A stretch of 44,322 nt of DNA from IMG/VR virus record IMGVR_UViG_3300006929_000030, positions 1 through 44,322 of that record, one strand, 5' to 3'. Under the pieces are notes generated by a model. It was not told the DNA's origin. It saw only the letters and a program-made list of their open reading frames with translations, and searched no databases. This DNA comes from a virus. Position numbers and translations under genes: made by a program. Positions within the stretch are counted from its first letter, which is position 1, and every line of letters begins with the position of its first letter. Shown here one piece after another: positions 12,856 through 44,322 of the stretch.

Positions 12856-13389
12856 ATGGAAATTAATGATGAATTACTGGCTCAATGGGAGCCAAAAGTA
12901 CAACGCTTACTAAAAAACACGTTTGTTCTTGGCTTAGACCGTGAGGATATTGCTCAAGAGCTACGCATTGCCATAATAAAAGCCGCAGGAAACTTTTCTG
13001 AAGACAGAGGAGTATCATTTCATACTTATTTACATACGGTAATGATAAATTCTCTTAGAACTTTAATTTCCAAAGCGCAAAAATCCAAAAATATTCATGA
13101 AGCCTACAACATAGACGGAATAAATTTAGATACTGACGCTAATTCTGGTTATATTTCTGCATCTTTAGCCGAGAGTTTGATGGATTCATCCTCTTTAGAG
13201 TTTATGGATACCGTAGAATTAATGGATATTATTACTAGAGCTGGATTATCTCAACTTGAATTAGCCTTTTTAGAGCTTAGGTTAGAAGGAACACCAATGG
13301 ACAGAATTAGTTACTTGTTAGATATGCCGGCATATAAAGTTAGGTCCTCAATTCAACGTAAAATTAAAAAATATTTAAAAACTCCTTAA
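12856..13389 (+). CDS. RNA polymerase sigma-like factor (sigma-70 family, ECF size)
   Basis: 177 residues. Residues about 25-77 match region 2: DREDIAQELRIAIIKAAGNF, then RGVSFHTYLHTVMINSL, the helices that bind core polymerase and the -10 box. Residues about 130-176 resemble region 4 (LSQLELAFLELRLEGTPMDRIS, then an HTH ending VRSSIQRKIKKYL) that reads the -35 box. Linker length is typical of two-domain sigma factors. ATG abuts the stop of the HTH/zinc gene. It likely redirects host polymerase to phage promoters; the 44-base elements at 30883 and 35355 are candidate targets. Weak point: region 4 is divergent. Confidence 0.7.
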   Translation: MEINDELLAQWEPKVQRLLKNTFVLGLDREDIAQELRIAIIKAAGNFSEDRGVSFHTYLHTVMINSLRTLISKAQKSKNIHEAYNIDGINLDTDANSGYISASLAESLMDSSSLEFMDTVELMDIITRAGLSQLELAFLELRLEGTPMDRISYLLDMPAYKVRSSIQRKIKKYLKTP

Positions 13390-39269: not shown

Positions 39270-39533
39270 ATGATTGAAAAAACTGAACAGATATCAATAG
39301 ATTTAGCAGTTTATATGGAAAGATTAGATACATACATAGCAACTCAATCCCAACTTAATGAAGCCTTATGTAGCAGATTAGAAAATTTAGATTCGGAATT
39401 AGAAGACTTACGCGACTGGCGAAGCCGGTTTTATGGCGCTAAGTCTCTTTTATTTTTATTTGGAATATTACTTGCTCATGGTGCCGCGGTAATCGCTAGT
39501 GTAGTTGCCGTTACGACCGTGATAAATGATTAG
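39270..39533 (+). CDS. Small membrane protein with N-terminal coiled coil
   Basis: 87 residues. A coiled coil (LNEALCSRLENLDSELEDL, about 28-46) is followed by one transmembrane helix at about 58-82 (SLLFLFGILLAHGAAVIASVV). It has the opposite domain order to the tandem membrane proteins at 42712-44322. Could be a holin-like or phage membrane-association protein; no family recognised. Confidence 0.55.
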   Translation: MIEKTEQISIDLAVYMERLDTYIATQSQLNEALCSRLENLDSELEDLRDWRSRFYGAKSLLFLFGILLAHGAAVIASVVAVTTVIND

Positions 39534-39542
39534 GAGAAATTA

Positions 39543-40457
39543 ATGGACAAACACATTGACGTTCGCGAATGGGAGATTGATTACTCAACAAGACAATCAA
39601 CGCACCCCAATACTAAATATCAGCCTTTTAGGCAAGCAACCAGCACGACTGCCGCTACCTTATTAACATGTGGTCAAGGTGAAATAGCTGTAAACTTAGT
39701 TACTAATCCCAGAATTGAAGCGACGGATATTAGCACGTATACAGCTACAGGGTCAGCTATTTCAAGAGATACAGGACAGCAATCTACTGGCACAGCATCT
39801 TTGTTAGTCAATCCTGCTAACTCTGCCGCAGGGGAAGGATTTTATTGGACATCACCGCTTATTCCTTTTGAGCATTTTCCGCAACATATAACAGCCCAGA
39901 TTGAACATCGAGGAGCTTCGGCTTCAGGAGCCGTTAAACTTGAGATACGAGACGCAGACGGTTCAACTGTATTAGCAACGTCAGGCAGTTCAAACTTAGC
40001 TACCTCATGGACTAGACTTACTGCCCAATATACTATTCCAGGTTCTACTGATGCGGCAGCCTATAGTTTATACGTAACGACTCAAGCCCAACACAATATC
40101 AACTATTACGTTGATAAAATTGGATGGGAAGTTCGTGATGACACAATTGCAGTATCAACTTACGTAGACGGTTCAGTAGGAATTAACTACGAATGGACTA
40201 GTACAGAAAATGCTTCAACATCTATTAAGCGACCTGGCATGACACAAGTTCGAGGAATAAAAGTCACTAACGAATCTAGCACAGGTGGAGAAATAGTGTA
40301 CGTTGCATTTGACCATACAGCCACAGCATCTACGGGTATACCTGTAGGGGCTGGTGAGTCGTACGAAACGCAGTTACCTATAGCCTTTAAAGATAAAGTA
40401 AGCGTAATTTCAGCCACAGGCACACCGACAATTCGTGGCGTTATCTGGGGTATATAA
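39543..40457 (+). CDS. Virion surface protein with carbohydrate-binding-like domain
   Basis: 304 residues, ATG behind TAGGAG. Residues about 50-205 look like a jelly-roll of the CBM4/9 or concanavalin type: VNLVTNPRIEA, TGSAISRDTGQQSTG, then WTRLTAQYTIP and INYYVDKIGWEV. The C-terminal 70 residues are a second beta domain (IVYVAFDHTATASTGIPVG) that resembles spike or decoration domains. Probably a capsid decoration or fibre protein able to bind glycans; inferred from fold-like patterns only. Confidence 0.55.
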   Translation: MDKHIDVREWEIDYSTRQSTHPNTKYQPFRQATSTTAATLLTCGQGEIAVNLVTNPRIEATDISTYTATGSAISRDTGQQSTGTASLLVNPANSAAGEGFYWTSPLIPFEHFPQHITAQIEHRGASASGAVKLEIRDADGSTVLATSGSSNLATSWTRLTAQYTIPGSTDAAAYSLYVTTQAQHNINYYVDKIGWEVRDDTIAVSTYVDGSVGINYEWTSTENASTSIKRPGMTQVRGIKVTNESSTGGEIVYVAFDHTATASTGIPVGAGESYETQLPIAFKDKVSVISATGTPTIRGVIWGI

Positions 40458-41299
40458 TGACTAACTTAGATGTTTATCAACAAGTCTCAGAAGATGCATC
40501 AATTGTTGTCTTGGAAAAGGCATACGGAGCAACTACAGTTGATGATATTGCTGAAGCGTTAGAAGAATATGAAAGATTGTTTAAGGCAGGTATAGCATCT
40601 GCCGGTGAAATACTTACCTTATCTCGCGCGTATCCAGAAAATGATGTATATAAACAATATGCTGATGATGTCCCTGATGAACCTGTAGTGGTAGGAGGAC
40701 CAGCATCTGTAGAAGTGATTGACCGAGAAGGTCATTTAATTAAGATGTCTGCACTAGAAAAAGCCTTCGCGAAATATATGTCTAACTTTAGAACTCGCAA
40801 CGCTATGGTATTACATTCAGATGTACAAGTAGGATGGGCGTTGCCTGCCTACATAACAAAAAGCGGACAGGTATTTAAATCTGGTGTGAATGAAGAAGGT
40901 TTGTTTTTCATTACAGAGATGAGAAACGATACCAATATAGCTCAACGCGTATTAGACCAAATTAATGAAGGTAAACTTAAATCATATTCTATTGCAGGCT
41001 CTGCAACAAAAACCGAACAGCTTATGAAAGACAACTCGCCTTACATGGAAGTTCAAGAGTTAGACTTGGCTGAAATTACAGTTTGCGAAGTTGGAGTAAA
41101 TCAAGGAGCCAAGTTCGATATTTTGAAAACTGAAGGCGTTGAGTCAACACAAACGTGCCAAGACGGAAGTTGCTTAGTAAATACAGAAACAAAGCAGGCT
41201 GAACGTAAACCATTTAGACCTAGTTTGCAATTTTATAAATCTAATAATACACTGGACAAAATTAAAACATTTCAATATTGGATAGATACAAGGAGTTAA
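40457..41299 (+). CDS. Prohead maturation protease candidate
   Basis: 280 residues, overlapping the previous stop by one base. From about 85 it shows the herpes-type prohead protease pattern: NAMVLHSDVQVGWALP (H120), EEGLFFITEMRND, then GKLKSYSIAGSATKT (Ser 176 or 178 as nucleophile) and LDLAEITVCEVGVNQGAKF (equivalent to 'l.EvSlv..PaN..A'). N-terminal 80 residues are helical. It would process scaffold and capsid protein. Its place three genes after the capsid gene is unusual; the protease normally precedes it. Confidence 0.65.
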   Translation: MTNLDVYQQVSEDASIVVLEKAYGATTVDDIAEALEEYERLFKAGIASAGEILTLSRAYPENDVYKQYADDVPDEPVVVGGPASVEVIDREGHLIKMSALEKAFAKYMSNFRTRNAMVLHSDVQVGWALPAYITKSGQVFKSGVNEEGLFFITEMRNDTNIAQRVLDQINEGKLKSYSIAGSATKTEQLMKDNSPYMEVQELDLAEITVCEVGVNQGAKFDILKTEGVESTQTCQDGSCLVNTETKQAERKPFRPSLQFYKSNNTLDKIKTFQYWIDTRS

Positions 41300-42277: not shown

Positions 42278-42460
42278 ATGGTAGATGACATAAATAGCAA
42301 CTGTGTTTGTGAATGTGCTGATGAAACCTCTACCCAATGTATATGCAAAGATGAATCGGCATGCCCTTGCCAAGGATGTGGATGTGAAGCAAACGTACCT
42401 GTAACTCAGTGCGGATGTGGAAATTGGCAACAATGCGCGATTGATGAACAAGAAAATTAA
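42278..42460 (+). CDS. Cys-rich metallothionein-like mini-protein
   Basis: 60 residues behind AGGAG, of which 12 are Cys. They form CVCEC, QCICK, ACPCQGCGC and QCGCG clusters, that is C-x-C and C-x2-C pairs with few aromatic residues, the composition of metallothioneins that bind Zn, Cu or Cd through thiolate clusters. There is no signal peptide, so the product should stay in the reducing cytoplasm, or be a small virion component. A disulfide-rich toxin is less likely without a signal. The adjacent His-rich gene fits a metal-handling pair. Confidence 0.5.
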   Translation: MVDDINSNCVCECADETSTQCICKDESACPCQGCGCEANVPVTQCGCGNWQQCAIDEQEN

Positions 42461-42472
42461 GGAGAAAAAGAC

Positions 42473-42700
42473 ATGATAAGAATACTGACATTAGGATTAC
42501 AATTTGCAATGTTGAACGCCAGGCAATCTAAGCCTGCAAAAAACATTCTCAAAGAGGGAATGGATGTAATCACTACTTTAGGAAACGCTTTAAAGGATAA
42601 AAAAATTACCCAAGCCGAAGTTAAAGCAGTATCAAAAGAACTGAAGCAGTTTAACAAAGCCGCTACTGACCTCTTAGACGCGCTAGTTATTCCTGAATAA
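42473..42700 (+). CDS. Small hypothetical helical protein
   Basis: 75 residues behind AAGGAG. The N-terminal MIRILTLGLQFAMLNA is mildly hydrophobic, then a basic helix (AKNILKEGMDVITTLGNALK) and an acidic-basic helix (TQAEVKAVSKELKQFNKAATDLL). The 'D.LG.AL.D..IT..E' pattern recalls small phage proteins of unknown role near lysis or tail genes. No firm family. Confidence 0.5.
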   Translation: MIRILTLGLQFAMLNARQSKPAKNILKEGMDVITTLGNALKDKKITQAEVKAVSKELKQFNKAATDLLDALVIPE

Positions 42701-42711
42701 CAGATGCGATT

Positions 42712-43059
42712 ATGCGAGGTTCATTTAAGCTATATGGATTTATTGTATTAATTCTTTTCCTTGCCTCATTATTAGGAAGTTTATACTACTTCAATAAAAT
42801 TAGTGGGTCATTAGCTACACTTGAATCTCGCCCCAACACAACCTTAACCGTTACTGAGTCTAATACTGTTGAAATTCCACAAGAAGTATATTGGGCATTA
42901 GATGATTTATGGAAGGCGACTGAGCAAACGCAAAGGGTTATAAACGAAAACCGTTTTCAAATTGATTCATATTATTATCAACTCGATGATTTAAACGCAC
43001 GCCTTCAAGCGGTAGAAGAAGAATTAAATTCTTTTTTATCAGAGCAGAGGTGGAACTAA
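42712..43059 (+). CDS. Membrane-anchored coiled-coil protein, family member 1
   Basis: 115 residues: short basic N terminus, one transmembrane helix at about 7-29 (FIVLILFLASLLGSLYYF), then a long helical region ending in a coiled coil (YYYQLDDLNARLQAVEEELNSFL). The pattern TM helix, aromatic pair, then coil is shared with the next three genes, although this copy is the most divergent. Probably exposes the coil outside the membrane (N-in). Could act in lysis control, superinfection exclusion or membrane scaffolding. Confidence 0.6.
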   Translation: MRGSFKLYGFIVLILFLASLLGSLYYFNKISGSLATLESRPNTTLTVTESNTVEIPQEVYWALDDLWKATEQTQRVINENRFQIDSYYYQLDDLNARLQAVEEELNSFLSEQRWN

Positions 43060-43060
43060 A

Positions 43061-43417
43061 ATGAAACTCAATCTTAATTTAGCTACCATTAGTGTGCTGG
43101 TAGGCTTCGCGACTCAGATTGGTGGAGGAGTTTGGTACTTATCTCAGATAGATGCCGCGGTAGCTTCTAATTCAAACAGTATTCAAAAGATACAATCTAC
43201 TTTAGATGAACAACCCTACGATTATTTAAATGCAACGGTAGAAAGTTTAACTAATAGAGTGGATGAAATCTCAATGACTGACTTACTTACACTGTTCCAA
43301 ATGGGCGGTGATGAAATGGATGAAATATCGGACAGATTATCCGAGCTAGAAAAATTAAATTCCTTGATAGAGCTTAAGCTGGAGATGCTTGCAGTACAAG
43401 GAGCAGGAGGGTCATAA
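43061..43417 (+). CDS. Membrane-anchored coiled-coil protein, family member 2
   Basis: 118 residues, ATG one base after the preceding stop. Transmembrane helix at about 8-27 (ATISVLVGFATQIGGGVWYL), then the shared junction WYLSQIDAAV and coils NSIQKIQSTLDEQ, VESLTNRVDEIS and ISDRLSELEKLNSLIELKLEML. It overlaps the next gene by one base. Similarity to 43417 and 43770 products at the WY-x-S-x-(I/L)-D junction indicates duplication. Confidence 0.6.
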   Translation: MKLNLNLATISVLVGFATQIGGGVWYLSQIDAAVASNSNSIQKIQSTLDEQPYDYLNATVESLTNRVDEISMTDLLTLFQMGGDEMDEISDRLSELEKLNSLIELKLEMLAVQGAGGS

Positions 43418-43770
43418 TGGATATAAAACTTGGAAATATAAAACTTTCATTAGGTATAATTGTTACCATTGTCTTACAGGCTGCCGCGCTAATTTGGTAC
43501 GTGTCCTCACTAGATAGCCAAATGTCTGCCAATACGACGCAAATAGATGAATTAAAAACACAACTCGAACGATATCAGGAACTAGATGCGAAAAGCTCAT
43601 CTCAACTAGAAGGACGGTTAGACCAAGTGGAGCAAGTTCAACGCGTAATTGATAATGAGATGAGGACTATAATGTCTGACCATTCTGGCTTTAATGATGT
43701 GCTTAAAGAATTAAATAATGCGGGTCTATTACCTAGTGGCGAGAAGCGAGAATACGGAGGGTATTACTGA
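43417..43770 (+). CDS. Membrane-anchored coiled-coil protein, family member 3
   Basis: 117 residues starting on the previous stop. N terminus MDIKLGNIKLSLGIIV resembles member 2 (MKLNLNLATISVLVG). Transmembrane helix about 11-29, junction IWYVSSLDSQM, then coil TTQIDELKTQLERYQELDA and LEGRLDQVEQVQRVI. The C terminus (SGEKREYGGYY) is unique. Starts and stops overlap by one base at both ends, typical of a translationally coupled array. Confidence 0.6.
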   Translation: MDIKLGNIKLSLGIIVTIVLQAAALIWYVSSLDSQMSANTTQIDELKTQLERYQELDAKSSSQLEGRLDQVEQVQRVIDNEMRTIMSDHSGFNDVLKELNNAGLLPSGEKREYGGYY

Positions 43771-44192
43771 TGAATAATTTAAAAGTACCTATAGCTGTGG
43801 TAGGCGTTATATTAGTACAAGCCTTTGCGGTGATATGGTATATGTCCAATCTAGATGCTACTGTAAAAAGATTAGATGATACAGTAAGCAACTCTGCCAT
43901 AGAACGATTTGGCATAATGGAGACTGAGATAGAAAATCTAAAGGGTCGTTTATTGTCTGAAGGCTCTGCTGAGATGGCAAAAGATGTTGGAGAACTAGAC
44001 ATGAGAGTTTCGGAAATAGAGGAACTGTTATTGGAATGGTCAGACCAAAATGTATTCCATATACACGATGAAGACTTCGATAAGAAAATCGACCAGAAGG
44101 TAACTTCCCTTAGACAGAGGATTAAGAAGCTGGAAGATAACCAAGCCACAATTTTCGAAGAAGCCCGTGGTATTAAATCAAAGGTGAAATAG
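43770..44192 (+). CDS. Membrane-anchored coiled-coil protein, family member 4
   Basis: 140 residues. Transmembrane helix about 7-26 (PIAVVGVILVQAFAVIWYM), junction WYMSNLDATV, then coils (METEIENLKGRLLSEG, MRVSEIEELLLEW, VTSLRQRIKKLEDNQATIF). The longest copy; its C-terminal extension carries an acidic His-containing segment (NVFHIHDEDFDKKI). The next gene starts one base after its stop. Confidence 0.6.
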   Translation: MNNLKVPIAVVGVILVQAFAVIWYMSNLDATVKRLDDTVSNSAIERFGIMETEIENLKGRLLSEGSAEMAKDVGELDMRVSEIEELLLEWSDQNVFHIHDEDFDKKIDQKVTSLRQRIKKLEDNQATIFEEARGIKSKVK

Positions 44193-44193
44193 T

Positions 44194-44322
44194 ATGGGCA
44201 AAAACGGTAACGGAATAAATTTATCAGAGTCTGGGAAAGTAAACCTAGATATTAAATCCTTGGTAGGTATTATTGCAATGTTATTATCAATTGCATCAGT
44301 GTACTTTACGTTGCAAGGCAAG
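44194..44322 (+). CDS. Possible fifth membrane protein of the array, 3' end cut
   Basis: Only 43 codons are in the window and the frame stays open to the last base. After a polar N terminus (MGKNGNGINLSESGKVNL) there is LDIKSLVGIIAMLLSIASVYF, a transmembrane helix ending in an aromatic pair, as in the preceding four genes. Whether a coiled coil follows cannot be seen. Confidence 0.5.
   Translation, partial: MGKNGNGINLSESGKVNLDIKSLVGIIAMLLSIASVYFTLQGK

Follow-up and report, generated by a model that had tools for sequence, protein, structure and literature searches.

The window analysed here, a stretch of 44,322 bases that makes up the whole of IMG/VR virus record IMGVR_UViG_3300006929_000030, ends inside an array of small genes lying shortly after those for the portal, the major head protein and the prohead protease. 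Open reading frame calls bear out the first-pass annotation in that five genes (referred to hereafter as a to e) run back to back on the same strand (Table 1); b and c, and likewise c and d, are joined by one-base stop/start overlaps (TAATG and TGATG), with one-base gaps between a and b and between d and e. A purine-rich sequence resembling a ribosome-binding site precedes several of the starts, most clearly those of c and d. Hydropathy places a single helix close to the N-terminus of each product, as the annotation had read it, followed by a helical tail, and none of the array proteins matched a Pfam family above cut-off. In several related viruses, a short-motif match identifies small proteins resembling the product of the gene directly upstream (p75), encoded ahead of gene c.

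Table 1. Coordinates of the array genes, of other features in the window and of features named in related contigs.
Feature	Location	Strand	Description
Gene a	window 42712..43059	+	115 aa; N-terminal membrane helix 7-25, unrelated to the b/c/d module
Gene b	window 43061..43417	+	118 aa; module paralogue (Q...VWYLSQIDAAV), acidic helical tail
Gene c	window 43417..43770	+	117 aa; module paralogue; long helix, conserved tail NEMRTIMSDHxGF...GE(K/R)REYGGY
Gene d	window 43770..44192	+	140 aa; module paralogue, longest helical tail
Gene e	window 44194..44322	+	first 43 residues only (contig end), 118 aa in relatives; single-helix family, EFRIKWPRGELGALP motif
p75	window 42473..42700	+	small protein directly upstream of the array
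Cysteine-rich ORF	window 42278..42460	+	60 aa; upstream of the array, conserved in sister contigs
XhlA-like layout	window 39270-39533		87-aa protein, coiled coil and C-terminal helix; between major head protein and 304-aa gene
Prohead protease	window 40457-41299		matched among phage records by haloarchaeal tailed viruses alone (31-32% identity)
Sigma-70 region 2 protein	window 12856-13389		Pfam E 4e-11; relatives in G005-G008
QueG-like protein	L004:6445-7719; L098:3151-4425		4Fe-4S motifs; after the array
SBP_bac_3 lipoprotein	L005:6479-7663; L004:7723-8883; L003:1466-2130		amino-acid-binding
Bmp/PnrA-type lipoprotein	L076:8863-10008; L093:219-1367		sister lineages
SprT-like metalloprotease	L005:7665-8162; L282:4616-5098; L284:4907-5404; L309:4423-4857		HExxH; few genes after module gene
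RPQ(I/V) hairpin protein	L067:6774-6941; L076:13302-13454; L265:3822-3995; L110:4408-4590		~50-60-aa membrane protein beside module or related genes

The annotation had proposed repeated gene duplication, pointing to a WY-x-S-x-(I/L)-D junction in three of the genes. The junction reads WYLSQID in b, WYVSSLD in c and WYMSNLD in d, and it closes a module made up of one N-terminal helix, in which a Gln and a Trp are conserved, and then (Y/W)xSxxD (in summary form, Q...W(Y/W)xSxxD). Profile comparison of orthologue groups joins b to c (E 8e-7) and c to d (E 3e-8), with b to d alone weak (E 0.0016); control comparisons with unrelated single-helix phage proteins mostly gave E values of 0.01-0.8, with single values of 7e-4 and 1e-3. 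When the module block was shuffled within its membrane and tail segments (5,000 shuffles), at most one shuffle reached the observed module score for every b/c/d pair, such that the shared junction lies beyond chance. Judged from these comparisons, b, c and d are paralogues produced by gene duplication.

The two flanking genes have a different relationship to this trio. Gene a of the window does not carry the module and displays no significant similarity to b, c or d in profile comparison. In three sister contigs (L004, G002 and L098), the gene occupying its place is a chimera of 172-173 aa, which opens with a d-type module of ~60 residues (E 4e-13) and closes with 62 residues matching a (E 3e-20); the C-terminal domain of a (...EVYWALDDLW...RFQIDSYYYQLDDL...RWN) is thus common to the window protein and to a 173-aa sister-virus protein with a d-type N-terminus. 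Because the chimera joins a d-type module to an a-like C-terminus, the membrane module has been exchanged on this domain, in either direction, and it is through the swap seen in sister viruses that a is linked to the family. The same Gln and Trp recur in b, c, d, the chimera, and relatives from cobaviruses and one cyanophage. Gene e has no detectable similarity to a-d; the window copy ends at residue 43, before the family motif, and these 43 residues are 98% identical to motif-bearing sister e proteins. Five paralogous copies are therefore ruled out, a and e being unrelated to b-d at the sequence level: the proposed duplication holds for b, c and d, reaches a only by module swap, and does not extend to e.

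The array is conserved in close relatives, with variation in copy number, and so survives the refutation check that the first-pass annotation had set. It is found whole in L002, L004 and L005 (in L004 with chimeric a) and likewise, with chimeric a, in L003/G002, whereas in L098, which lacks d and e, chimeric a, b and c are followed directly by a QueG-like gene. Viruses farther out in the group have a single copy (G006) or, at the same place, other single-helix proteins together with small hairpin membrane proteins (G005, G007). Full-length e is followed in sister contigs by a QueG-like gene and/or one for a solute-binding protein, and the array ends there; the suggestion that it continues past the window was right for the rest of e, and no more copies follow. 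Gene b is 86-91% and gene d 84-91% identical in sister contigs, and c carries a 22-residue coiled-coil insertion in L002, L003 and L004. Between orthologues, omega for b, c and d is ~0.03-0.12 where computable (b 0.03-0.10), and 0.19 for a. The b/c/d orthologues are under strong purifying selection, with b and d ranking with the better-conserved proteins; this marks the paralogues as old and constrained, and the rapid divergence ascribed to the array by the first-pass annotation is rejected.

In predicted shape, the array proteins combine a membrane anchor with an acidic tail whose strongest periodicity is 3.5 residues in c, as expected of a coiled coil, 3.5 in a, and 3.7 in b and d. The distribution of charge around the helix in the c family favours the N-terminus lying inside and the tail outside, and we predict this N-in/C-out topology for the array proteins. 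An AlphaFold model of c comprises one continuous helix (residues 4-101) and a flexible tail (mean pLDDT 75, pTM 0.31), while that of full-length e from a sister contig has helices at 20-67 and 79-116 with a break at the WPRG motif (pLDDT 73); both models are plain helices.

The annotation had held that nothing in standard lysis cassettes resembles such an array. This proved incorrect, in that many marine phages have relatives of b/c/d and of e next to their endolysin and holin genes. Viral contigs hold at least 129 relatives of the module, ~80 of the c subfamily (recognized by its NEMRTIMSDHxGF...YG tail) and at least 570 of the e family, and d matches phrog_8909 (E 2e-10). The module gene directly follows an M15 peptidase endolysin in L119 and L155, is flanked in L159 and L174 by a GTA-type-holin-like gene on one side and, on the other, by a small lipoprotein gene that overlaps it, and has a relative in ICBM2 placed after an amidase endolysin and a lipoprotein. 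Relatives of e adjoin M15 or amidase endolysins and three-helix holins; of 75 loci, 26 have an endolysin within four genes and 32 a holin-like gene. Within-locus permutation gave 30 of 41 e-family loci beside a lysis hit (8.1 expected) and 10 of 12 for the module (2.4 expected), counts that are inflated since neighbours of these very genes had supplied the M15 and holin profiles; Pfam confirms M15, Amidase_2 and GTA_holin_3TM among the neighbours, and it is on this confirmation, together with the isolates HTVC027P and ICBM2, that the argument from context mainly leans. For the c subfamily the context is not purely one of lysis, since a member starts inside the end of the terminase gene in L131 and another lies near a transglycosylase-domain protein in L294.

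Two further kinds of neighbour were seen around these genes (Table 1). A SprT-like metalloprotease was rejected as a fixed partner, as it lies within five genes of c in about one-fifth of 60 loci, many of them truncated. Among the small hairpin membrane proteins, one has weak holin matches below cut-off.

The closest described counterparts are found in cobaviruses, where small membrane genes beside the spanin and endolysin have been regarded as potential holins/antiholins (PMC6775973); a lysis role for this kind of protein is accordingly not new. Cobavirus-type phages encode the same membrane module, with Gln and Trp conserved (CRP-4 gp33/gp34, CRP-7 gp68/gp69 and an 86-aa protein of ICBM2). 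Searches with c hit gp34 of CRP-4 and gp69 of CRP-7, and those with d hit the gene that comes next (gp33 and gp68, respectively), in the order seen in the window; the similarity is weak, and by this measure a c-like then d-like pair recurs outside the present virus group. These phages carry one or two copies, placed in relatives by an endolysin, spanin or GTA-holin-like gene, and have a walled, double-membrane host, whereas the window has three copies together with a module-swapped gene and e, and no endolysin was found. The second family, known from pelagiphages and other marine phages (HTVC027P gp15, HTVC041P gp46; phrog_20984), has its EFRIKWPRG motif and architecture in common with full-length e of sister contigs; elsewhere it often lies by an M15 or amidase endolysin and a three-helix holin, whereas here it closes the b-d array. 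The new features are that the two families are linked, that the array is duplicated and module-swapped, and that it occurs in probable SAR202 viruses in which no endolysin was detected.

The link to SAR202 comes from genes that these viruses have acquired. A lipoprotein of the SBP_bac_3 family (Pfam E 5e-14), whose gene directly follows the array in L003 and L005 and comes one gene later, behind the QueG-like gene, in L004, is 50-57% identical to proteins of nine marine SAR202/Dehalococcoidia/Chloroflexi genomes in GTDB, the next hits being partial and at most 41% identical. The sister lineage G005/G007 carries a different lipoprotein, of Bmp/PnrA type, and the L076 copy of this is 57-70% identical to counterparts in 12 genomes of the same SAR202 order (13 matches). 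Because two independent lipoprotein acquisitions point to one order, the host is probably a SAR202 Chloroflexota bacterium. The 343 genomes searched from the class yielded no copy of the virus, and the major head protein had no match in them or in GTDB contigs, an empty result that carries no weight without a positive control. The sigma-70-like factor encoded in the window suggests a bacterial host; an archaeal one, hinted at by the halovirus-like prohead protease, is ruled out by this factor, DnaB, a bacterial-type DNA polymerase and the SAR202 lipoproteins.

SAR202 bacteria are reported to have a monoderm envelope with an S-layer-like coat and no peptidoglycan genes (PMC10444878, PMC11994032). 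In keeping with this, 117 of 118 genomes of the SAR202 order lack FtsW/RodA (10 of 14 controls being positive), and eight of nine lack the PBP transglycosylase. On the viral side, M15, amidase and SLT profiles found nothing at E 1 among the predicted proteins of the window, G002, G005-G008 and L002/L004/L005, genomes whose completeness is not proven, and Pfam identified no endolysin among 50 non-core proteins of G005.

Among the roles put forward by the first-pass annotation, a lysis-related one is the best supported. We tentatively favour, at a confidence somewhat short of even, the reading that the array consists of lysis-module membrane proteins, holin/antiholin- or spanin-like, which have been kept and multiplied where a wall enzyme is unneeded. 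Proteins b, c and d would each have a short N-terminus in the cytoplasm, cross the membrane once by the helix bearing the conserved Gln and Trp, and extend a long helical tail on the outer side, with a as a recombinant member of this family and e belonging to another of similar build. Where the phage infects a walled bacterium, members of either family are probably holin/antiholin- or spanin-like parts of the lysis machinery and would time or complete lysis by an endolysin. The array would descend from such proteins and act at the envelope late in infection: through their coiled coils its products may assemble and, either unaided or with holin-like partners, break up or perforate the membrane/S-layer envelope to release the virus. 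Where the host has a single membrane and an S-layer, disrupting that membrane could be enough for lysis, and this would explain both the missing endolysin and the enlarged protein set. Against a lysis role, the array in the SAR202 viruses follows head genes without a recognized holin or endolysin alongside; a one-helix protein of 115-140 aa has only a generic holin-like shape, and the pairing of holin/antiholin with an endolysin in one cassette, as found in the relatives, was not found in the window's virus group. A precedent in concept is the proposal that archaeal viruses lyse S-layered cells devoid of peptidoglycan by holin alone, for which a review reports no tested example (PMC4456609); the window virus would share that type of host envelope and the apparent absence of a wall enzyme, and its array would be a bacterial candidate. 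The wider proposal, that SAR202 viruses open their hosts without an endolysin by means of an expanded coiled-coil membrane set drawn from ordinary lysis cassettes, perhaps helped by the hairpin proteins and the SprT-like metalloprotease, we regard as conceivable and, as a whole, unlikely.

Outward-facing coiled coils on single-helix anchors, as predicted here, could instead serve superinfection exclusion or host takeover, blocking receptors or DNA entry at the cell surface, with the paralogues covering different competitors. Copy number and module do vary between close relatives, and the region holds envelope-related accessory genes, since its neighbours include host-derived uptake lipoproteins. 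However, b and d are conserved under strong purifying selection, unlike a typical arms-race gene, and both families recur beside lysis genes in unrelated phages; we therefore consider this role unlikely. A part in virion assembly, as a membrane-anchored scaffold for the head or for packaging, would suit the position of the array after the head genes and the c relative that begins within the terminase gene in L131, but position relative to the head genes differs between relatives and, to our knowledge, the heads of such tailed phages can normally be built without a scaffold in the host membrane, making such a part decidedly unlikely.

More doubtful again is membership of a strict two-component spanin, in which the module proteins would be inner-membrane Rz-like subunits acting with an outer-membrane lipoprotein. 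Size and shape fit, an N-terminal membrane helix and external coiled coil being predicted (from sequence and models) in the array proteins as in Rz-type inner-membrane spanins; c weakly matches Rz-like spanin families (phrog_1152, E 3e-4; phrog_7686; phrog_739), and a small lipoprotein gene overlaps the module gene in L159 and L174. The window array, however, has no partner o-spanin: the only lipoprotein seen to follow the array in sister contigs is a solute-binding one of 386-394 aa, and ICBM2, which has a module gene, already possesses a unimolecular spanin (PMC6775973). The host, if SAR202 as proposed, would have no outer membrane (PMC10444878), and a strict spanin, one of the roles offered by the annotation, is doubtful because the probable host lacks both outer membrane and peptidoglycan; membership fails on the lipoprotein partner and probably on the host envelope. 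That the array proteins are membrane tethers aiding imported solute-binding lipoproteins during infection is very improbable: two binding-protein families do lie near these genes (SBP_bac_3 in L003/L004/L005, Bmp in G005/G007), but in the contexts read such neighbours are missing from most module relatives, and no permease gene was seen beside them.

SAR202 bacteria are abundant in the deep ocean, and we know of no established account of how phages lyse a bacterium that has neither peptidoglycan nor an outer membrane. Members of the group have been cultured only recently (PMC10444878), and a search for papers on SAR202 phages found none in the literature library covered. The array supplies named, conserved candidate genes for lysis of such cells, while the EFRIKWPRG motif and the membrane module mark two widespread families that recur in marine phage lysis cassettes. 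The position of their relatives among lysis genes suggests that the array proteins may open the host free of any wall enzyme, a proposal that lends itself to testing.
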